A stretch of 64,000 nucleotides of DNA, taken from positions 819,074 to 883,073 of the forward strand of contig NW_022985550.1 of assembly GCF_010093815.1 (NCBI RefSeq). The letters are read 5' to 3'. Positions within the stretch are counted from its first letter, which is position 1. Each line of letters starts with the position of its first letter. The DNA comes from Pseudovirgaria hyperparasitica (Eukaryota; Ascomycota; Dothideomycetes; Acrospermales; Acrospermaceae). Under the pieces are notes generated by a model that had not been told where the DNA came from, searched no databases, and saw only the letters and a program-made list of their open reading frames with translations. Position numbers and translations under genes: made by a program. Below, piece by piece: positions 1-51,594 of the stretch.

Positions 1-2416
1 CGACTGTCGACCGCCGTCATAGTAGCTCTGGCTCGACTGTCGGCCGCCGGGATCGTAGTAGCTCTGACGCGACTGTCGACCGGCGTCGTAGTAATTGTTG
101 TTGTTGTTATTGTTGTTATTATAGCCCTGCGTAAAGGGCGGGGCTTGGTAGTACATGTCCTGCCCGTAGCTGCTTTGCTCTGGCTGATAAGCCATAGGAG
201 TAGAGTAGGGCTCGTTGGGAGGGCCGTCGTAGGCTGCTGCTGGGTATGGGTTGAATGGGCTGCTGCTGTGGTTGTCAAAGGCGGATGCCGGGCGCGAGCC
301 GAAGCCGTCGTTTAGAGGCTCGAGTTCGCGCGACGAGGCGAAGATGTCGAAGCGTGAGAGTTGCGAGCTTGGGAGCTTGAACGGGAGGGCTGATGAGAGG
401 CCGTTTGCTAGTGTTGAGAAGGGGTCTTGATGGCTGCCGTGCGTTGCTGATGATGATGTTGATGATGAGTGGTTGTGACCTGTGGCTGTGCCGTCGTATC
501 CTTGGTGGTGGCTGCTCTGCGGTGCGTGGGAATGCGATGCGCCAGCACCACTGCCAGTGAGGTGAGGGTTTCCGCCTTGGTGGTTCTTTCCGTCTCTTAC
601 GCTTTGCGACGACAGCACGTCGTTGATGTTGAACGAGTGAGACTTCCTGGCAAACTTCTCCACCACCCGGAACATGTTCCTATGTATCTCAATGTTCTCG
701 TCACGGATGGCCGGATGATGAAACACTCGGGCTACGTCGTCGACGACTTGATCGACGGGTATGTTTGGGTTTTCCCATGCGTACACGACGCGCGGCGCAA
801 CGTATTTGACGATTTGGGCGGCTACTTCGCCCGCTGGTGAGTTGAGGACGTTGGAGAAGTGATCTTTCGACAGCATCGAGTGGGTTGGATCTGTGGAATG
901 AGGGTCATTCCACACCCCGTATTGCTGCTTCGCAGACGCATCAACCACCGTCGACGAGCCCTCCTTCAATGACTTAGAAGCCGCCTTGATCAGGGGCTGG
1001 ATGTAAGGTGCCAGAAGACCAAAGATGAACAAGGTAACCCGCTCAGAGATGTTGTCAATCAGCTTCTCTAGACCAGGAATCTTGGAGATGACTGTGCTGA
1101 TTGCACGAACGACCTTGTCGCGAAACTCGAGAATAGGATAGATTTTAGGAATGATCTGTGCTGGATCCATGTTAGTACCTGGTATGTCTGGGCCCGGAGG
1201 TCCGCCCATAGAGCCGGGAGGCGCTTGGAAGCTCGGAGTCCCCTGACTTTGACTTGGACCGTCTCGGGAGCTCGATGTGCCATCGAAACCTCGGGATCCG
1301 TGATGGCCGTTTGCTGCTGCTTGTTGCTCCGACAATGTCTGTAACTGGAATGCTTCGTCGCAAAGAGTACTGGTACCAGGGATCTTGGACAGGAGGCTAA
1401 CAAGGTCTTGAGCACTAGTATCGCCACCACTGCCCTTCTTTCCTGACGATGATGCATTCCCAAGAGTTGAGTTCATCTCATCGAGCTCGGATTGGGTGAC
1501 GTGATCGGTTGCCTCACCCAAGACTGAGTGAAGGAAATCCACACCACCAAAGGTACCTGTAACAAGGGGAAAAACATATTTGCCACGGAGATTGATCTGT
1601 GTCGCTGATCCGGTGTGTGGAAAGACATTGTCATATCCCAACTCGCGGAGAGCGAGCTCCGTGTAATTAGTATGGGCCCCAAAGTCTTCTAGACAGTGGA
1701 GACCCTGTCCGAGACAGCGGAGTGCTTCACACAAGTCCTCTTCCTTGCCTTTCTGCCGACTGGACGTATACATGCGACCGAAATGAATACTTCGTGCTAA
1801 GCTGAATTTGATATAGCCAACACTGGTGGCCCATCCTCCTTGCTCATTGGCGATATAATTCTTCATGCCTATCATTGCGCATTAGTAAGTAGTTACCGTC
1901 CACCAGGGAATTGAACCCACCAGTATGAGGATCTACAGCTAGCTCTTGCGGACTGACTGGACCTCGTAGTCGCTGATCATATTGTCGAGCGTCAACGTTG
2001 TCGGCGTAGTCCTTTGGGTTATCGATATGCTCCTCTGGTCGGTACACGCCAAGACGTTGCGCCGTGACTTCAAATTCACCGGTCGCATAGCCAAATGACA
2101 TGAAGGCGAGAACCCACACAAGAACTCTGATAGTCTCTGCTTGCACGCCCTTTAATGTCCCAACGTCGACTGCCTGGGAGTAGTCTCTAAGCCAGTTGCC
2201 AAAATAGGTCCGTTTGATCTGCATCGAGGTCCATTTTCGACCTTTCAGAAATGCGATCGTAGCCAACACATCCTCGATGTCGCCATGGCGCCAGTTGTGA
2301 CCTTCGACCTTGGAAAGGCTTGCGATGTTACCGGCACCGAATGCGGCAGCGGGGGCGGGGAGGAGCACGAGGATAGTAATGACGAGAAGCAATAGGTGGG
2401 TATTAGAGAGCGCCAT
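1..2416 (-). CDS. het-C: HET-C family heterokaryon incompatibility protein (3' end outside window)
   Basis: Homologue of Neurospora het-c, a secretory-pathway protein whose allelic differences trigger incompatibility after hyphal fusion. It starts at 2416 with a hydrophobic signal peptide ending near AAAFG. The conserved core follows: NWRHGDIED, YFGNWLRDYSQAVDVG and YRPEEHIDNPKDYAD. One 52-nt intron (1869-1920, GTGGGT...GATAG) joins DPHTG to MKNYIANEQGGW; without it the frame stops at 1844. The second exon then stays open to position 1, and the window holds 788 codons. The C-terminal part is low-complexity, with an Asn run and a tandem GRQSxQSYYD-type repeat at positions 1-110, cut by the window edge. 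The glycine/tyrosine-rich tail fits the family's known glycine-rich C terminus. Whether this copy acts in incompatibility cannot be told from sequence. Confidence 0.93.
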
Positions 2417-3274
2417 GGTTGATACAAGTTAGGGAACGTGACCGGAAGAGAAGAGAATGTAAGAAAGAAGTCAGAGAGTGAGATCGATAAGTTGATTTGT
2501 ATGAAATAACTTAGGTTACGCAGTCACATGTGAACAGCTTCCCCGTTTAGCGCATGACGCATTCGTTCCTGCCCTTCAACCACTGTCTACACCTGCGCGC
2601 GGCGAAGTATCAACTATTCTCCACTCTTCTGACATTATGCTTAGTTCCAACACCGACAGCGAGGTTGTGTGTTGTCTATAGGCCCGAAACCATCATTAGT
2701 TTATTCGCTCGGCTCCTGTCTGACCTTGCGTGGGGGAAATGAAAGATGTTCGTATGGCTCGTATTGCTGTGGCTGAGTGTGGCTGTGCTGTGTGGCGTGG
2801 ATATCCCAGGGGCAACAATAACGACAGTAACGACGACGACAATGATCCCAGGCATAGACACAGACACACTCCGCCGCAAGTACTGTAGTGTATCACATAA
2901 TTCATGTCATGCCCGCAAGTTCTGGTGAGACACAAGATGCGTTCGAGATCAGGCTGTTCAGACATACATCAATATAGAGGAGGTAGTAGGTTAAGAATAT
3001 GAGCGAGCTTTAGTCTCCATATTGCCCTGGCGATCAACAAGGTTTCTCGAGCCGCTGGCCACTCTCGATACTCAACAATGTCTCCTGTTGCGGTATGGCT
3101 GGCAGCATTCAGACATGCATACTCTGCAGAGTGACGCTACTACCGAAGCGCAAGGATGCTGCTATAGTGCTAGATCACTATACTAAGAACATAGACAGAG
3201 TAGATCTATCCATTTGAGAAGGGCTACCATCACTCCCCGATTCAAGACCGCCATCACTATATCTGCCATTCCAA
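2417..3274. other. Divergent intergenic region between HET-C and DPP3
   Basis: 858 bp between two genes transcribed away from each other, so it must hold both promoters. It contains only short ORFs with no recognisable protein similarity. No tRNA or other RNA gene was seen. Confidence 0.6.
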
Positions 3275-5713
3275 ATGCGCCCTGGTCTCTATGACTACCT
3301 ACGCTGCCTCCGAGTCGTAGTGCGGGGAACGCGCCAGTCATGTAGCTACAGCTCCAGCTCCAGCTTCAGGCTCCCTCCCTCCAGGACCCCTCTCCTCCAT
3401 TCACTCTCCTTCCACAGCCCTACATCTCGACTCTTCTCCAGCCAGCCGCATAGATTCCACTTCCTCTCCACCATGGACAAAGATACCATCAAGCAATATC
3501 TGGCTGACAGCCCGCCTTCGGTCGTGCCACTCAGCATCAAACCTCATTTCGAGGCTCTAAGCGACGAAGAGAAGCTTTACGCTCACTATATCTCTGTGTA
3601 TGCTGCTGAGCTCAGAGCTTTGATGGATCTATCTAACGTCAGTCTAGAGCCTGTTATGCCGGCTCTCGCATCGTTCTACGCCAAGTCTCGCCCGAATCCG
3701 AACACATTTACGATCTCATCGTTGGCCTGTATCAGCATGGCAAGGGAGATTGGAAGGCCCTACAGAAAGAAGCTGGTCTCTCGGATGAAGAGCTAACCGA
3801 GTTTCTCAACTACGCTGCTCAGTTCCTCGGTAACCTGGGCAATTACAAGTCCTTTGGTGACTCAAAGTTTATCCCAAGGTCATCTCGATCGAACTCTGCC
3901 AGCTATATCTCGTGCCTGACCTGAACTACAGGTTACCCTCGCGCCAGACAAAAGCACTTGCAACGCTGTCCCCAAAAACCCTAGAATCGTACGAAAAGGC
4001 AAAAGATGGAATATACGAGACCAAGTCCGTTGGACTGATGCACCTTGGCTATCCCGATGCCGGCCACCTTTCCACATACTATCCCCAATCGCCCGATATC
4101 ACGAAAGAGGAGATTACGAAAGTCAGTGACTTTATGGAGAGCAAAAAGCTCCTGCCCGAAAACACGCGTATCCGGAAGACTTCCGAAGGCTTCGAGGTTC
4201 TGATAGCCTCTGCTGAGACCGATCCCTCGGAGAGAGATATCCCTGAATCGGAATGGACTCTAGACGGAAAGAAAGTCAAGCTCGTCTTTGGAGACTACTC
4301 TATTGAGATGAAGAAGATAGCCGATGCCCTTGAGAAGGCAGGCCAGTACGCTTCGAACGACACCGAGAAAGCAATGCACAAGGAGTATGTGAAATCATAC
4401 AAAACTGGATCTCTCGAGGCATACAAAGAGAGCCAGAGGCAGTGGATCAAAGACAAAGGACCAATGGTGGAGACGGATATCGGATTTGTCGAGACTTACA
4501 GAGACCCCCACGGTATTCGTGGCGAATGGGAGGGCTTTGTTGCTATGGTCAATAAAGAGCGAACCGAAGCCTTTGGCAAGCTGGTCTCAGCTGCACCCGA
4601 TCTCATACCAAGACTACCTTGGAGCGCGGATTTTGAAAAGGACAAGTTCTTGAGCCCAGACTTTACCTCTCTCGAGGTACTTACCTTTGCCGGATCAGGC
4701 ATTCCTGCTGGCATCAACATTCCCAATTACGACGACATTCGCCAGAACATCGGCTTCAAAAATGTCAGTCTAGGTAACGTCCTTGGCGCAAAGGCCCCCA
4801 ACGAAAAAGTACCATTCATCAAGGAGAGTGATCTGGCGGTTTATCAGAAGTACCGTGACGCAGCATTCGAGGTTCAGGTGGGCTTACACGAACTACTTGG
4901 ACACGGTTGTGGCAAGCTCCTGCAAGAAACAAAGCCTGGAGAGTTCAACTTTGATAGGAAGCTGAAGAATCCGCTCGACGGCCAGGAGATCAAGACCTGG
5001 TACGGTCCTGGCCAGACCTGGGGCAGTGTGTTCGGTCCGATCGCGGCAAGTTATGAAGAGTGTCGAGCGGAGTGCGTCGCCATGGCCCTGACCTGCGACT
5101 TCGACATCCTTGAGATCTTTGGCTTAGGCAATGGAAAGGATGACATCGATGGTCCAGCAGGTGACGTGCTCTATGCCAGCTATCTGAGCATGGCTCGCGC
5201 TGGTATCGCTGCTCTCGAATTCTGGGATCCAAAAAGCCGCAAATGGGGCCAAGCGCACATGCAAGCACGCTTCTCTATCCTCCGGACTTTCCTCAACGCC
5301 GGAGTTGAATTTTGTGAGCTCGAATACACCAAAGATGACCTCTCTGATCTCACCATTCGACTTGAGCGATCCAAGATTCTCAGTTTGGGACGTCCAGCTG
5401 TGGAGGAGTATCTGAAGAAGCTGCAGATTTACAAGGCTACTGCGGATGTCAAGCATGGCACCCGTATGTATAACGAGATCACAGACGTGGAGCCCTTCTA
5501 CGAGACCAAAGTCCGGCCAGCCGTTTTGGCGGCGAAACAGCCCAGGAAAGTGTTTGTGCAAGCTAGCACTTTCATTGAGGGCAACAAGGCCGTCTTGAAG
5601 GAGTACGATCCGACTCCAGAGGGAATGTGAGTATAGTTCTGTTTCAGTCGAGTATCATTCACACTGACATATATCTCAGGATCCAAAGTTTCGCAGAGCG
5701 AAGCTACATCTAG
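3275..5713 (+). CDS. Dipeptidyl peptidase III (peptidase family M49), apparent one-base frameshift
   Basis: Zinc metallopeptidase that removes dipeptides from short peptides, normally cytosolic. The M49 signature HELLGH is near 4887, and the second zinc-ligand motif EECRAE is near 5056. Exons are about 3275-3878, 3932-5626 and 5680-5713. The introns (53 nt each) join FIPR to LPSRQ and EGM to the tail IQSFAERSYI. There are two in-frame starts. ATG 3473 (context CCACCATGG, protein MDKDTIKQY) gives the usual cytosolic form of about 711 residues. ATG 3275 adds 66 residues rich in Arg and Ser without acidic stretches, like a mitochondrial presequence. Near 3691-3695 the frame changes: upstream reads FYAKSR, downstream resumes as ESEHIYDLIVGL, both family-like. 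One base therefore seems to be missing, which may be an assembly error or a real mutation. All other conserved parts are intact. Confidence 0.92.
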
Positions 5714-5878
5714 TTGTACTCCCTTGTACAGAGCATTGGCTGGCGCTAAGGGGCATTTGTGTATATAGAGTTGGCGGGGTCGCAGCCGACGGCGTACGGG
5801 TCCTGTTGACACTATAAAGCAATCAGGATAGATCAAATCATCTACATGATCTAAAAATTGTTCAATTGCCCCTGTTCT

Positions 5879-6535
5879 CTAATCCATAGCCAGGATCTTC
5901 CTGATATCCTCTGGGACATCAATCACTTCCTCCTTCGGCACCAAGCCCTTCTCAACCAACGCCTCAATCGTCACATTTCCTTCATCGATAACCCTCTTCA
6001 ACTCCCTAGCCCTATCCGTAACATCCTCAATCTCCAGAATCCCTTCTTCCGCCCACGTCCCACTCATCCCCCTCGGCACCCCTATCTGCACACTCCTCCA
6101 CCCCAGCCTCCGCAGCCACACATCCCGCTCCGGATCCCACTGCACCACCACCACTCCCCCCTTTTTGCCACCTTCAACCTCGCTTCCAGCCTCACCCTTA
6201 TCCACAGCCCCAGCAGCACTATGCGTGCTCAGCCGCGCCGTCCGCAGCATCCCCCACAGATACTCCCGCTGCATCGTCAGCGCGAGAATGCGCTCCTGGC
6301 CCGGGTCCTTGTACGAGTAGCCGGCGCGGTACAGCATCCAGGCCCAGGACGGCTTGATCCATGTCATGCGCGAGAGGGAGAAGGAGGGCGAGGCGGAGAG
6401 GCGCTGGGCTTGGACGGCGGGGGTGGCGATGGTGGAGGGGTAGGCTTGGTAGAGGGTTATGGTTGTGTTGGAGGGTGTGTGGGCGCGGATTTGGCGCTGG
6501 GGTGGGGATTGTTGGGGGGGGTTTTGGGGGGGCAT
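5879..6535 (-). CDS. DUF4291 domain protein
   Basis: Single-exon gene for 218 residues. The family core is clear: an N-terminal IRAHTPSNTTITLYQAY segment, then RMTWIKPSWAWMLYRAGYSYKDPGQERILAL, and a later VQWDPERD segment with LGWRSVQIG. DUF4291 proteins occur in bacteria and fungi. Their biochemical role is unknown, so no function is assigned. The coding strand is strongly C-rich in its first half and G-rich in its second half; on the plus strand the switch lies near 6340. A short glycine/lysine-rich insert (EVEGGKKGG) interrupts the domain. The gene lies tail-to-tail with DPP3, 165 bp apart. Confidence 0.88.
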   Translation of the reverse strand: MPPQNPPQQSPPQRQIRAHTPSNTTITLYQAYPSTIATPAVQAQRLSASPSFSLSRMTWIKPSWAWMLYRAGYSYKDPGQERILALTMQREYLWGMLRTARLSTHSAAGAVDKGEAGSEVEGGKKGGVVVVQWDPERDVWLRRLGWRSVQIGVPRGMSGTWAEEGILEIEDVTDRARELKRVIDEGNVTIEALVEKGLVPKEEVIDVPEDIRKILAMD

Positions 6536-7053
6536 GTTTTTGTTATGGGTTTTGAGGTGGATTGGTGGTGTTTTTTGGGATGTGTGGTGTTGCTGTGATT
6601 TGATGGGTTTGTTTTGTTTTGTGTGGGGATTTGGGTGGGTTTGATGGGTTGTGCTGCTTTTCGTGAGCTATGCTGGTGTTTTGGTTTCTTGTTTATTTCT
6701 TGTCGTGTGCATTGTTGTTGTTTGTTTGGTATGATGGGAGAAGGAGTGTGGGTATATATATGCTGTTGGCGTAAAGCGATGAGTGGCACCAAGACGGAGT
6801 AATAGTACCAGATATCGATGCACAAGTTTGGGACACCGCAACTGCGGACACTCTTGCCAGCTGGAATACGAGGTTAGTGCTGGCTAGGGGGACTGACACG
6901 GTGATAGTTGAAGCGCAAGTAGCCATCGTGATCGACATTAGTAGCTGTGACTCAAGCTGGCTGTGGCTGTGCCGAGCCGTAGCGCCACCAGTCAAACATT
7001 ATTTCCTAAGGAGTAATATTCTTCGTTGAAAATTTACACTTGCGGCAAGACTA
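6536..7053. other. Intergenic region upstream of the DUF4291 gene
   Basis: 518 bp between the start of the DUF4291 gene and the stop of cyclin C, both on the minus strand. The left half is very G/T-rich on the plus strand. It contains no supported gene. Confidence 0.5.
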
Positions 7054-8013
7054 TTATTTCTCCAAACCTTTACCCTTCACAAATCGGTTGATTTGCTCTC
7101 TGCAGACCTTTTCGTTGTACTGATCCCAGACCTCGTACAGACTGATGAGTTCCTGGGTGCAGTCGACGATGGCTTCGATATCTGCAGAGCTTTCCGCCAG
7201 CCAAGTGATCAGCTTCTGGATCCTGATCTGGATGTTCGCTCCACCAGGCCCGTTTGCTCCGGGTGCTGCCTTAGGGTTGCTCAATGCCTGCAATGCATTG
7301 GCGACATTCGCAGCATGAACTTGGTGCGTGCTTTGTTGGGGCCTCAGAACGACAGCGAGAACCATTGCTGTGATTGCTATCAGATGGGGAGCATGTAAGA
7401 GAGGAAGATCCGTGAGATAATGGTCGTTGATGATGTTCCAGGCAAGATTGTTCTCCTCTTGGCTGAGGGGAAAACTAGACTGAAGCTCGGTCATGCTTCG
7501 GTAAGGATGGTGGATGATGAGTTGCGAATTCATCTCTGCGATGAGGGCAAACTCGCATTCACCGATCCTAGAGGGCTCCTTGGGTCCAAAATCTGGCCAG
7601 TTGTGATTGGCTTCAGCTGAGAGCAGACGGATATGCTGGGGGCATTCTTCCATCTTGCAGGCGAGGTACAGGGCTGTCGCTACGACAAGGAGCGGATTGG
7701 TCCGGCGGATTTCGACTTTCGTGTAGAAGCGTCTGATATAGATTTGAGCTGTAGCTAAAGCTTGTTGTCGGACAGAGAGAGGCTTTCCCAGCTTCTGCAA
7801 CTCTGTTTCAAGTTAGTATCTGCGGACACGGGACGAAAGGAGATGGCCCTGACGTTGAGCAAAGTATTGGCTCAGTAGACGGCGATCTGGTAACGGATAC
7901 TGGGAGACCAGTACTCGCTCCGAGTCCTCTAGTTTCTTACGGATATCCGCAAGCTCTGGTTTCGTGTATGTCCAGTTTCGCCTCTGGGTTGAGTCCCAGT
8001 AACTGGATGCCAT
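7054..8013 (-). CDS. SSN8: Cyclin C, Mediator kinase-module subunit (SSN8/Srb11 type)
   Basis: Cyclin partner of the Cdk8 kinase in the Mediator of RNA polymerase II; nuclear. The N terminus [14 protein letters not shown] is characteristic of cyclin C. The cyclin box follows, with [19 protein letters not shown] and [24 protein letters not shown]. Two exons, 7854-8013 and 7054-7802, are separated by a 51-nt intron (7803-7853) with a TACTAAC branch site just before its 3' end. Spliced length is 302 residues, normal for filamentous fungi. A small NGPGGAN insert lies in the second cyclin fold. It is divergent from the mitochondrial carrier gene, about 600 bp away. Confidence 0.95.
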
Positions 8014-8615
8014 GATGTGAACCTGATACTCAGAGTATACGTAAATCTGCCATGCTCAAGACTGTACACTGGGATGAAGTTGCTTTCAAATGGTCTCACG
8101 CATCCTAGCCTTTCTAGGCAGATGGTTGGAGTTCGCCAGTCTCAAAAGTAGCCTTGATCACGAACGTCGCACGGCTGCAAGAGCAGCATAGGACGAATGT
8201 TTTGTTTAGCAAGTCCTAGAGGACTATCAAGACTTTGGTCAAATTCAGAGCGAATATGTGTTCTAGGTCGAGTGTTTGGGGGAGAAGGTCAAGGCAAGGT
8301 GTCTTCCGAACCATTCATAGATTGGGCATCTGGTGCATCCATAGCTACGCTAACCCGCTCTGAGTCTAGATGGTCACCGAGCCTCACCAGCTGCCGACAG
8401 CGTCACAGCAAAACAACTCAGTAGCTGGCTGCCAGGGAGCCCCACGGCTACTTTGTTTCACTTCCATCCATTCCTATGATACCAGCGTAGATAATTCCTT
8501 TGGGTGTACGCACAGGTCCGCGCCTTTGACGACGAGTTCCCCCGCAATCGACCACGCACAGCATGAACGAGGGCAGATAACGGCATCTGAGCGGCTGCGA
8601 CATCCGGTCACGATC
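8014..8615. other. Divergent promoter region, cyclin C / mitochondrial carrier
   Basis: 602 bp between two divergently transcribed genes. An ORF entering from 8370 is open upstream of the carrier start, but it shows no carrier similarity before the ATG at 8616. Confidence 0.5.
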
Positions 8616-10791
8616 ATGGACGGTGAAACCCCCAACGCCCAAGCTATGCGGCTTGAGGAGCTATGGACAACGCTGGACGCGAAGAAAACTGGTCACCTGG
8701 ACCTCGCGGGATTAAAAAGAGGCCTGAAGAAAATGGACCATCGTGAGCAAAGCGATCACAACTACCGTCCCGAATACTCATACCCGAGATCCAGCCCTAA
8801 AGCATGCAGACTCCCTTGTAGAAGATGTCATGCAATCTGTAGATACCAACAAGGACGGCCGCATCACATTTGCTGGTCAGTATTACACCTTGACTGTCGG
8901 CATTGTTCAGGACCGCTTCGCTAACAGTGGCTGTAGAGTTTCAGACCTTCGTGAAGCAAACCGAACGCGAGCTTTATTACCTTTTCAAGAGGATAGACCA
9001 TAACGAGGACGGCAAGCTTGATAAGGCGGAGCTCAAACAAGCTTTTCAAACAGCAGGTCTAGCTGTGCCAGACTCCAAGTTTGAGCGTTTCTTTGAGCAA
9101 GTCGATTCTAATCAAGACGGTGTGATAACGTTCGACGAATGGCGGTATGTTCACTTCAATAAAAGTGAACAGAGAGATCTCGGCTGACGTGATTACCCCC
9201 AGGGATTTCCTTCTTTTTATTCCCTCTGGTGAAACCGATCTTCGAGCTGTACTATCCTATTTCACTTCCACCTTTCGAATGAACCCAGAGGGAGATGCGC
9301 AGATAAGTGACGATATTATCGATGGGCTAGGTATACAACAACAATTTCTTAACATTTTGTTCGGCGAAATTGTCAGGATAGCAAAGCCCCCAAAGCCGCG
9401 TCCGCCCGCTTCTGTCCAAAACAATTCGTCCATTACACTCACCGCACCGCACCTGGACATGTCTTCAGAAGAGGCAACACTCACCCTCCCTCCGAAAGTA
9501 GACACCGTCGAGTTTTCGCCAGATGTCTCAGAACCCGAGACCGACTCTGCAGTCTTGCAACTTGAACAGACAAAGCCGGTGCTGATTCTTATTCCTTATT
9601 CAGGCTACTTCGTGGCGGGAGGTATCTCCGGTATCGTCTCTCGTACTGCTACCGCCCCCCTCGATCGTCTCAAAGTCTACCTCATCGCCCAAACATCGGT
9701 CACATCAGAAGCTGTCCAAGCAGCAAAATCGGGCAATCCCTTTGCTGCAATAGGCAGAGCATGGCGGCCCATTGCGAACGCGATGAAAGATCTTTGGCAG
9801 GCAGGTGGAATCAGGAGTCTCTATGCAGGTCTGTGTACCCCCAGACAGCTTTTCGCGATGGCTAATCCGTGAAGGAAACGGCTTGAATGTGGTGAAAGTA
9901 ATGCCAGAATCTGCAATCAAATTCGGCTCATATGAGGTCCGCTTCCTGGCTATATTTGGTAGACCTTCACCGTTAACGACATGTAGGCCACGAAACGATT
10001 CTTTGCTACTCTTGAGGGCATTGAAGACCCGAACAACATCCATTCGTATGCGAAGTTCATGGCAGGCGGTGTTGCTGGCATGGTGTCACAGTATGTCTAG
10101 ACATTTACGTTCATCATTGAATTGAGGGACTAATATTGTAAAGGTTCGCCGTGTATCCAATGGACACATTGAAATTGTAAGACTCACTCGTGTCGATTCC
10201 GAATGCTCACTGACTTCGGCAGCCGTATGCAATGTGAAACTGTTAAAGGTGGACTGCACGGCAATCAGCTAATAATCACAACTGCGAAAAAGATGTGGGC
10301 TAAGAACGGTGTGGTGGCCTTCTATCGCGGCCTACCCATGGGATTGGTGGGCATATTCCCTTATGCTGCAATTGACCTTGGAACATTTGAGTACCTCAAA
10401 CGTGCTCTCGCCAGAAGAAAGGCAAAGAAACTCGGATGCCACGAAGAACAAGCACAGCCCAGCAGCTTTGCCACGGCTTGCATTGGAGGTTTCAGCGGTG
10501 CTTTCGGTGCTAGTATGGTCTATCCTCTGAACCTACTTCGCACCCGTCTCCAGAGCCAAGGAACAGTTCTTCACCCTAGAACATACACTGGAATTATGGA
10601 TGTTACACGGCAAACTATCAAAGGTGAAGGGTACAGAGGTCTGTTCAAAGGACTGACACCGAATCTGTTCAAGGTTGTCCCTGCTGTTTCCATTGTAAGT
10701 GCTCCGCCTTTCTGCTTCCGCATCAGGTGCTAATCTCGAGCAGACCTATGTTGTGTACGAGCAGTCTAAGTTAGCCATGGGCCTACCATAA
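8616..10791 (+). CDS. Calcium-dependent mitochondrial carrier with EF-hands (SCaMC/Sal1 type)
   Basis: Inner-membrane carrier, probably ATP-Mg/phosphate exchange regulated by calcium, as known for SCaMC/Sal1. The N-terminal half has EF-hand loops DTNKDGRITFAEF, DHNEDGKLDKAEL and DSNQDGVITFDEW plus a weaker first one (DAKKTGHLDL). The C-terminal half has the three carrier repeats, signatures PLDRLK, PMDTLK and PLNLLR. There are nine exons: 8616-8742, 8789-8875, 8937-9144, 9203-9828, 9875-9936, 9987-10090, 10143-10175, 10223-10694 and 10744-10791. Introns are 46-61 nt. The sum is 1767 nt, or 588 residues. One exon is only 33 nt. A low-complexity linker (about residues 200-275) separates the EF-hands from the carrier. 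The boundaries were read by eye, but each restores family sequence. Confidence 0.93.
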
Positions 10792-11500
10792 AGCCGCTTT
10801 TGTGCCATCACGGACGCGTCCGCGTCTGCTTTGCATATACACGAGACCACCTTCACTGGGTCGTTTCGTTGGGTCCGTTACTTGCACGCTATAGACACAG
10901 CACGAATCGAGCCTCTCATGACATGTCTTTCAAAAATTCCACAGTACCCCATCTCGAATAGATACCCGCCCGCATTAGCTGCATAGTCAAAGAAATACTC
11001 CATCTACATGAATCTGTTCACGAGAAAGAGTGCGTACCTGTCTTGTTGACTGAGAATGAAAAAAAATTGTCTCCAGTGTTGCACAATAGTCGAAGCCTAG
11101 GTCTAAGCAGTATCACGACTTGCAGGACTTCGTGGCAAGTTCGATGCTAGTGACAAAATAATGATATTACTATGCCATGGTGCTCCATCACTGACATGGT
11201 ATGACGGTGAAGAGCTTGTCTGCCATGTTGTGAAGGGTAACAAGCCTGTGCCTAGTCGAGAGTAGATTGTGCATATGTCAGTGCTTATGAATGCGATGCT
11301 GATGTACCAAATGAGGAGCATAGTGGTTGCACAGTGGATTCCGAGTGTTTCGTGCACACGCCGCACGGTGCGTCCATGTTCATCGAATCCATGTTTCGAT
11401 GTTGATGCGGTCACGTGCCGGAGCAGAATTTTCGATCCGCGGAAGGCCGCAAGTCGCCTAGCGCAAGGTAAGCGAGGGTGCGCGGGCCAGCTCTATTTTC
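10792..11500. other. Intergenic region between carrier gene and U3 gene
   Basis: About 700 bp with only short ORFs and no recognisable product. The last 100 bp is presumably the U3 promoter. Confidence 0.5.
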
Positions 11501-11506
11501 TATAAG
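11501..11506 (+). promoter_or_regulatory. TATA-like box of the U3 snoRNA gene
   Basis: TATAAG lies 45 bp upstream of the inferred U3 5' end at 11546 and is followed by a pyrimidine-rich stretch. The spacing suits a polymerase II TATA element. Assignment rests on position only. Confidence 0.5.
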
Positions 11507-11545
11507 AACGACAGCCTCCCACCCTCTTCTCTCTTTTTTTCTTCA

Positions 11546-11875
11546 GTCGACTTTGTAAGTTCTCCCCGCCTACCTACACTTTCTACCTCTGCTTCTATGG
11601 CATGGAAAGGTTTATTCATTAGCATGTACTAACATCATCTCTCCTGCAGACTTCATAGAATCATCTCTATAGTAAACGACCCTCTGTTAACCACAGAAAA
11701 AAGCTTCAGTGCTGAACCTGGGTGATGATGTATAACCCCGACGCCCTAGAGTGACTGCCGCTATGGTGCGCGCACTGTACTTGCTACAGATACGCGTGGC
11801 GATGATCTCGACCCTGGTCTTTGGTACGCTCGTCGTGTCTGGGCTGGGGTGGGTGTTGGTGGTCGTCTGACAGGA
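11546..11875 (+). ncRNA. U3 small nucleolar RNA (box C/D) with a spliceosomal intron
   Basis: U3 guides early 18S rRNA processing in the nucleolus. The 5' part GTCGACTTT joins ACTTCATAGAATCATCTCTATAG after removal of an intron. This matches the yeast U3 5' domain (GTCGAC, ACTTCATAG, ATCATTTCTATAG) almost base for base. Further boxes are in order: C' TGATGA at 11723 followed by ATAACCCC; CCTAGAGTGACTG (box B region) near 11745; box C in GGCGATGATCTCGACCC near 11798; box D in GTCTGACAGG, with CTGA at 11867-11870. The mature length is about 235 nt, inside the known U3 range. The 3' end is placed a few bases after box D and is approximate. The gene lies in a region without protein genes, 150 bp from the LYC1-like stop. 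Confidence 0.95.
11555..11649 (+). other. Spliceosomal intron inside the U3 snoRNA gene
   Basis: 95 nt with GTAAGT at the 5' end, a perfect TACTAAC branch site at 11627-11633 and CTCCTGCAG at the 3' end. Removal rebuilds the conserved U3 5' domain. The intron sits within the first 10-15 nt of the RNA, close to where the Saccharomyces U3 introns lie. Confidence 0.9.
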
Positions 11876-12022
11876 CACTTGCAACTGGGTTTTTTTATAT
11901 AGTGGTTATAGAGTAATAAAATATTTTCATTCAATCCTGATCCTCTCACCTGTGCAAATGTGTATATCGTGTGTATAGTGTTGTTCAATTATTAGCTGAT
12001 ATACGATTCACAACCGCAAGAC

Positions 12023-13258
12023 TCAACACCAGCCATATTTCTCGTTGCTCACCCATTCCACCCCATCCTCTTCCTCCTTCGTCCCGTACCACATCAAGCT
12101 CGCAATGCTTTCGCAGTCCCTATCCACGACCTTGGCTTTGCCGTCTATCTGCTTTGCTGCGGCTACTGTGATTGACGTCGGGCTCCACACCTCTACCTCA
12201 TTCATATTCCACTGTGCCGCTTGTAGCTGGGCAGCGCGAAGTAGAGCTTCGACTGCCAGCTGCCTGCGCTGCTCTCCATGTACACGGTCGTTTGTACCAT
12301 TGTGGTGTGTCCCATTGACGGCAGTGCCGTTTGTCGGAGCAGCCCCTTCGTCTTCAACTACAAGGCGCAAGATATGCAAGGTATTGCCCTTGCTCGCCTC
12401 CACATCCGGATTGTACCACATCCGTGTCCAGTAGCACCACGCACGTTTACCTGCATCCAGCGATACAATGGCGCCCTTGACATCTGGTGAGCGACCAAGC
12501 AGTTCATAGCCCACAAATTCCTCTCGGGCATGATGCCATCTAATTGTCTCAATGTTTGGTAGCAACGCTACAGCGGGTGGCGCGTCTTCAGATCGTTCCT
12601 CCAGCGCTTTGCGTAGTATCTTCTCGTCTGCAGCACATAGATCCTCTAAATCGGCAGCACGTAGCTCCGACGCCGTCACAGGGCCTTTATGCTGGACTGC
12701 AGACGCCGGTACGGAGATATGGCTCGAAGGAAACGGTTTCCATCCGAATGACGCGTAGAACTTTTTCCCAATGTCCGAATACAACACCGAGAACAGGCTC
12801 TCAAAGCCCGTCTCCGCAACCTGGTGCGTCTTGAGTTTCGGCCCTAGCTCGCGCATCATGCGCTGTGCATACCCACGCCCACGATGCTCAGGGGGGCAGA
12901 ATACACTGCCAATGCCATGGCAGATGAGATCCTGCGTGCGTCCTCGGTGTGAGATGAGGGCTCGTTTGCGGAGAGACTCGCAGCCGCACAGCACTCGGCG
13001 TGTTGCAGTCGGCTCGGAGGTGTCGACGAGGACCCAGTAGGTGATTCCGGAGTTGGAGGATAGGGCCGTCTTGGCGAGATGTGCTTCACGGCGCTCGTAG
13101 GAATCTTGGGTGAGTGCACCGCGCCAGACGGAGCCATTGAGTGAGAATTGGTGGGCTTTTTCGGCCGCAGTTGGGTGGACGAGGGCTAGGGTGGGCGAGT
13201 CGCCGGACGGGAGAGGAGTGGAGGACATGGTAATGAAGTGGTTGACTAGAGATTCCAA
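12023..13258 (-). CDS. GNAT-family acetyltransferase, LYC1-like
   Basis: Single exon, 411 residues from the first ATG. A start at the eleventh codon (MSSTPLPSGD) is equally possible. The GNAT acetyl-CoA loop is seen as RGRGYA at about residues 126-131, after GIGSVFCPPEH. A C-terminal region matches the LYC1 type, the lysine N-acetyltransferase of Yarrowia: GFESLFSVLYSDIGKKFYASFGW, then RAWCYWTRMWYNP. In yeasts LYC1 acetylates free lysine in its degradation. The same substrate is inferred, not shown. An Asn/Thr/Gly-rich insert (near residue 320) breaks the C-terminal domain. The gene is divergent from the RBR ligase. Confidence 0.85.
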   Translation of the reverse strand: MESLVNHFITMSSTPLPSGDSPTLALVHPTAAEKAHQFSLNGSVWRGALTQDSYERREAHLAKTALSSNSGITYWVLVDTSEPTATRRVLCGCESLRKRALISHRGRTQDLICHGIGSVFCPPEHRGRGYAQRMMRELGPKLKTHQVAETGFESLFSVLYSDIGKKFYASFGWKPFPSSHISVPASAVQHKGPVTASELRAADLEDLCAADEKILRKALEERSEDAPPAVALLPNIETIRWHHAREEFVGYELLGRSPDVKGAIVSLDAGKRAWCYWTRMWYNPDVEASKGNTLHILRLVVEDEGAAPTNGTAVNGTHHNGTNDRVHGEQRRQLAVEALLRAAQLQAAQWNMNEVEVWSPTSITVAAAKQIDGKAKVVDRDCESIASLMWYGTKEEEDGVEWVSNEKYGWC

Positions 13259-14576
13259 GCTCTTTGTGCTGGCGTTTCACTAAACGGAGTCCCAGGGCCA
13301 ATACCGATTCTCACATAGACAGTCTTCTACAGACTATCCACACTATATTTGGAATGCAACGCTAGGGTTAATAGGAATAGAACGTGTTGAGGAGGCAGAT
13401 CGAGAGAATCAATTACTGCAGAGGTAGGCTGTAGATAGGTAACCCAAGAAAAAAGTGGACTGGTGTGAGGAGAGCAATAGCTTCAAATGCCCTCTCACGC
13501 GAGACAAGACATATATAATAACAGCCCAGTCAGCGAAGCCCGGAAGCCACGCCCACTATAAAACAGCCCTCCCCCCTGGCCTGCAGTGCCGCCCCGAACC
13601 TTGACTAAGAAACTCTGGGCAGTGGAGAGAGAGGTAGGTAAAGTTTCCCTTTTCCCAGACCAGCGATGCAGGTACGCACAACCGATGACAGCCGCCGTAA
13701 AGCGCCCAGGCCGTTCCTCACGTGGAGTGCTAGTGGTGGGTCTGCAGACCAGAACTGACGTTATGCTGGGAGTGACAATGGTAATACAGCAATAGGGGCT
13801 GACCATTTCTTGTCCCCGACGATCAATCAGTGGAGGAGGGCGTGTGGTGGTGGTGTTGTGAGGATGTTGTTTTCTTGTGACGGACTCGATGGCCTTGGAA
13901 CTAATCAGGTCTAATTATAACAGACATAGCAACATAGCACGCGGCAATCGCTTTGAATCTAGCGTCCGAGGCTCTGCTCCTTCCTAGGTTGGATTCTGTT
14001 AGCCTTGCCGCCTTGCCGCCTTTATGCCTTGACACCTGTGTGCCTTGATGCCTTGATGTCTTGATGCCTTGACGCCTTGTTGCCTCAAAATCATTAGCTG
14101 CCGCTTCGGTTCGCTGGGGGCGTGAAAGCATCCACGGATCCACTGTTCCGTCCTTTATCAAGTCAAATCGCTGAAAGTCGCGCTTTTTGCTTTTTGTCAC
14201 TGCTGTTCGCCGCTTCGTGGTGAATCCAGGACATTGTAGAGGACAACAATCCACTACATTCATTCATGTACCTATGTGTCTGCCGCCCTCGGCTCCGACT
14301 CGCCGAGCAGTCAGTCCGTAGAGCTGTGGGTGCCGTTCCCTTGGAGTCGCTCCGAGTCTGAGCTGCACTGCACTCGGCGTGTTCCAGCTCGCTCACAGCT
14401 GCCCAGCAGTCACGGTCTGCCATATTTCTTCAGCTTTGCTTCACTTGCTCGCTCGTGTACTCGTCATTCACTTTACCCTCGTTCCTTACAGTATTCAAAG
14501 AGACGGCATTCGCTTGTATGTTTCTAACAGCTTCATCTACCGCCAGCCTCGCGTTCATGCTGCAATCACCACAAAA
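13259..14576. other. Divergent intergenic region with a small decayed repeat
   Basis: 1.3 kb between the LYC1-like gene and the RBR ligase. It contains the CCTTGATG-type repeat listed separately and a pyrimidine-rich stretch before the ligase start. ORFs here are short and match nothing I know. Confidence 0.5.
13999..14086. repeat. Degenerate short tandem repeat, unit about CCTTGATGC
   Basis: About nine imperfect copies of an 8-10 bp unit: gccttgccg, gccttgatg, gtcttgatg, gccttgacg and relatives. It is non-coding. Confidence 0.8.
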
Positions 14577-51257: not shown

Positions 51258-51594
51258 GGTGGAAGGGGGATGGTGTGTGGTGGTGTCTGCTTGTTATTGG
51301 GCTGGGATGGAGACGTCAGCGTGGGTCGCTTTGTCGAGGGATGTAGGCAGTGTTTGGAGGGTCAGGAATCTTGGTTATACAGACCAACATGGCCGCATCA
51401 GAGCGGAATCGACGTATGAATCGACCAGAAGTAGTCCACCATCAAATCATTGCAACTCAACCCGTTCATTCATTCATTCATCTATCTATCCACATGCGTT
51501 GCACAGTGCGTCGTAACACTCATATCGAACAGGTATACATCTCTATATCCTAATTTTGATATTCCCCAAAAAAACAGCCACCCACATATCCCCA
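51258..51594. other. Convergent 3' region, hydrolase / amino-acid transporter
   Basis: 337 bp between two stops facing each other, with an ATTCATTC run near 51465. No gene seen. Confidence 0.5.

Follow-up and report, generated by a model that had tools for sequence, protein, structure and literature searches.

Does the plus strand at 11546-11875 carry a U3 snoRNA gene whose 5' end is split by a spliceosomal intron, as an earlier note proposed for this filamentous ascomycete, and if so, what does such a gene tell about the U3 introns of other fungi? U3 is an RNA with a role in ribosome assembly. The window, i.e., the whole 64-kb stretch of DNA that was analysed, originates from Pseudovirgaria hyperparasitica, a member of the Acrospermales (Dothideomycetes, Pezizomycotina). 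The sequence supports the interpretation of this locus as a U3 snoRNA gene with a canonical spliceosomal-type intron. It does so through features that can be observed directly: a match to the RNA family, the order of the conserved boxes, the intron signals and a hairpin M1 that is restored when the exons are joined.

The identity of the gene is given by the fungal U3 model of Rfam (RF01846, Fungi_U3), which matches 11646-11875 on the plus strand over its full model length with 107.4 bits (E 1.2e-25), 12 bits higher than the gathering cut-off of 95 bits. Comparison with a U3 covariance model had been suggested in the earlier note, and its identification of the family is borne out by this match. 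In the window, no match but RF01846 is listed with a score that passes the gathering threshold; a second, overlapping match from that clan is left out of the list. A permissive Rfam scan of 11200-12100 returned five other matches, all well under the cut-off of their own family. A pattern search located box C' (TGATGA, 11723-11728), the core of box B (AGTGA, 11750-11754), box C (GATGA, 11801-11805) and box D (CTGA, 11867-11870), all on the plus strand and in the correct order, as read before. Stem M2 pairs poorly in the RF01846 alignment.

The proposed intron comprises the 95 bases 11555-11649 (plus strand). It opens with GTAAGT, contains the branch-site motif TACTAAC at 11627-11633, which ends 16 bases ahead of the last intron base, and closes with CAG at 11649; its limits are those given in the earlier note. 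The U2-type signals (GT donor, branch site and AG acceptor) are thus all present at normal fungal spacing, which falls inside the range reported in a survey of fungal U3 genes (PMC5832005). When both strands of the 64 kb are searched, GTAAGT, TACTAAC and CAG are found together at intron spacing a single time, versus 32 times (17 plus, 15 minus) for a looser donor, branch and acceptor pattern. In a DNA search of the genome that skips very common words, a 361-base query containing the intron found itself alone, and an introner-like element was rejected as its origin.

The nine bases upstream of the intron (11546-11554, plus strand) form exon 1, with the predicted 5' end of the RNA at 11546 following from the alignment. 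The 5' side of M1 begins in exon 1, which also contains the initial U of box A' and is identical to the RF01846 consensus at eight of positions 1-9. An agreement of eight in nine with these first positions is found at 15 sites on both strands of the window, and exon 1 is the only one then followed by GTRHGT. Exon 2 (11650-11875, plus strand) provides the remainder of M1 with box A, followed by boxes C', B, C and D; its 3' end is that of the model. Together, the exons amount to a computed product of 235 nt, in agreement with the approximate length forecast earlier.

Removal of 11555-11649 joins GTCGACTTT to ACTTCATAG and restores M1, so that the claim of a rebuilt U3 5' domain, which has two hairpins (M1 and M2), holds for the first of these: exon 1 plus exon 2 up to 11680 reaches -9.3 kcal/mol in the M1 fold. 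When random 9-mers of the window were put in the place of exon 1, 30 of 5000 folded as well. The exon 1 fold ranks first of the eight GT sites tried at about 11450-11630 and second of the 84 GTRWGT donors on the plus strand of the window, a single unrelated donor at 51273 giving a slightly better joined fold (-9.5 versus -9.3 kcal/mol). With the donor fixed at 11555, the CAG at 11649 is the best of the four AG acceptors compared (-9.3 versus -6.9, -5.0 and -2.4 kcal/mol), in a comparison of folded pieces of unequal length. The extension of exon 2 to 11691 makes for a weaker test, in which 228 of 5000 random 9-mers were as good and at least eight nearby upstream 9-mers (with ends among 11350-11483) folded better than exon 1. 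The unspliced sequence 11546-11680 is no better than its shuffled versions (z 0.40, with 131 of 200 shuffles at least as good).

The unaided model alignment begins at 11646, which could be taken to mean that the gene is intronless and that its RNA starts near this position with an unusual first hairpin. We consider this highly improbable. The start at 11646 lies within the final four bases of an intron whose signals all conform to the consensus, five M1 positions are gapped in the alignment and several others are unpaired, and 11646-11691 alone folds at -4.0 kcal/mol versus -10.1 kcal/mol when exon 1 is joined to exon 2 and the sequence likewise ends at 11691. The split gene accounts for this behavior of the model: the first nine bases of the RNA are located upstream of the intron, so that the RF01846 alignment begins within it and leaves gaps in the first hairpin. 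Consequently, annotation by the unaided covariance model places the 5' end of U3 inside the intron, and the RNA would be mis-annotated.

A single U3 locus was found in the 35-Mb genome by a model search, which scored 24 of 363 candidates, and likewise by a DNA search; a diverged second copy may be present elsewhere in the genome. That the locus is a decayed copy, as its modest score (107.4 versus a cut-off of 95) might suggest, has a negligible probability, since it is the sole U3 match found in the genome, its boxes C', B, C and D are intact and U3 was present in all 147 fungal genomes surveyed (PMC5832005). Viral contigs were also scanned with a pattern of the M1 core, in case stray fungal contigs were among them, and gave no match. 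A literature search returned no title concerning the U3 gene of P. hyperparasitica among the matches listed.

An intron-split U3 gene is well in line with what is described for other fungi. Canzler, Stadler and Hertel (2017) surveyed U3 in 147 fungal genomes and reported introns in 138 of 310 U3 genes, distributed over 78 genomes and including the vast majority of the Pezizomycotina analysed, Dothideomycetes among them (PMC5832005). Nearly all of these introns (133 of 138) reside within the 5' half of M1, that is, in one arm of the hairpin. They measure 92 nt on average, carry GTRWGT, RCTRAC and CAG, and have a mean distance of 15 nt between branch site and acceptor (PMC5832005). The U3 gene of P. 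hyperparasitica, a species that is not named in the main text of that survey (the species list is in its supplement), has an intron in the same 5' arm of M1, of similar length and with signals of the same form. This is the arrangement of most Pezizomycotina analysed, and we count it in favor of the U3 interpretation. Thus, the split gene is an ordinary further example of a documented pattern, its tested features fitting the 2017 description as given there, and it adds one species of Acrospermales to those with known intron-split U3 genes. Similarly, the filamentous ascomycete Neurospora crassa has independently transcribed U3 genes with a small intron in each, yet it possesses three of them, compared to the one found in P. 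hyperparasitica (PMC2780460).

The comparison with Saccharomyces cerevisiae is more nuanced. The yeast genes snR17A and snR17B contain introns of 157 and 130 nt, respectively (PMC3454408), in the same hairpin arm as in P. hyperparasitica, and these are removed by the spliceosome. S. cerevisiae has two U3 genes, whereas one was found here, and the yeast branch site deviates from the consensus at its first base, whereas that of P. hyperparasitica is the full TACTAAC. Based on the printed primers (PMC3454408), mature yeast U3 reads GACGTACTTCATAGGATC and the 3' end of the intron runs into GGATC, which places the yeast junction probably at or within one base of CATA^GG, one of these primers being a splice-site mutant. 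The junction in the window is TTT^ACTTCATAG and would accordingly precede the yeast junction by about 8 nt, as estimated from these primers. The assertion in the earlier note that both introns occupy nearly the same place therefore stands for the hairpin arm, but probably not for the exact bond.

Whether one ancient insertion followed by losses and sliding or several insertions gave rise to U3 introns has been weighed for all fungi and was considered undecidable from the data (PMC5832005). The U3 gene of P. hyperparasitica alone decides neither for one old intron nor for repeated gains. An intron after nucleotide 9, which splits the U and A of box A' and leaves a 9-base exon 1, could represent a rare position and derive from a separate insertion or from intron sliding within the Acrospermales, instead of being the common intron of Saccharomycetaceae and Sordariomycetes. 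We regard this as rather unlikely. The survey describes slight variation of intron positions among Dothideomycetes (PMC5832005).

We propose that the locus is almost certainly a working gene, and the only U3 gene found in this genome, with a TATA-type promoter of its own and a 95-nt intron whose splicing completes M1 and the boxes for 18S rRNA processing. The gene would be transcribed independently from the plus strand as a precursor that contains the spliceosomal intron after nucleotide 9. The ordinary spliceosome would then join exon 1 to exon 2, which would complete both M1 and the two boxes A' and A. Splicing would be required, since the 5' strand of M1 begins in exon 1 and box A' takes its first U from there; the box A'/A region is the part of U3 that pairs with 18S rRNA (PMC5832005). 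In the mature RNA, boxes A' and A are expected to pair with pre-18S rRNA and the C'/D and B/C motifs to bind snoRNP proteins, in line with the roles described for the U3 boxes (PMC5832005; PMC8162545), and 18S rRNA processing would follow. When yeast loses the splicing factor Cwc24, the level of mature U3 falls and the processing of pre-rRNA is disturbed (PMC3454408); a dependence of U3 on splicing therefore has precedent.

A pattern search found a TATA-box-like motif (TATAA, 11501-11505, plus strand) 45 bases upstream of the predicted 5' end of the RNA, which may act as the promoter element. Shortly past the predicted 3' end follows a run of seven T (11890-11896, plus strand), which we guess, after work in yeast, to serve 3'-end formation or binding of the La protein. 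A CACGTG palindrome at 11412-11417, some 130 bases ahead of the predicted 5' end, is a putative regulator site. Box C/D genes of ascomycetes are said to be controlled by a Homol-D box (PMC8162545); a search for one exact form of this box did not find it in 11000-11546, which speaks against the proposal.

A non-exhaustive search did not indicate a host gene or an antisense protein gene at the U3 locus. The closest signs of coding sequence lie on either side of it. Upstream on the plus strand is a stretch resembling mitochondrial carriers, with a Pfam match in 9129-9869 and a frame at 10173-10733 that looks similar by eye. On the minus strand, a frame similar to the LYC1-like GNAT acetyltransferases (12023-13276) converges on the U3 gene at a distance of about 150 bases.

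Outside the window, the genome also contains 15 dispersed, uninterrupted U6 snRNA loci above the Rfam cut-off, and a sixteenth that scores below it; a literature search on U6 copies returned no papers. In all 15, TATA or AATAT occurs no more than 45 bases upstream, and at least five consecutive T stand near the end. A B-box-like G(N)TTCGANNC is present downstream of eight of the 15, and an exact 25-base core, derived from these same loci, is kept in eight of the 15.
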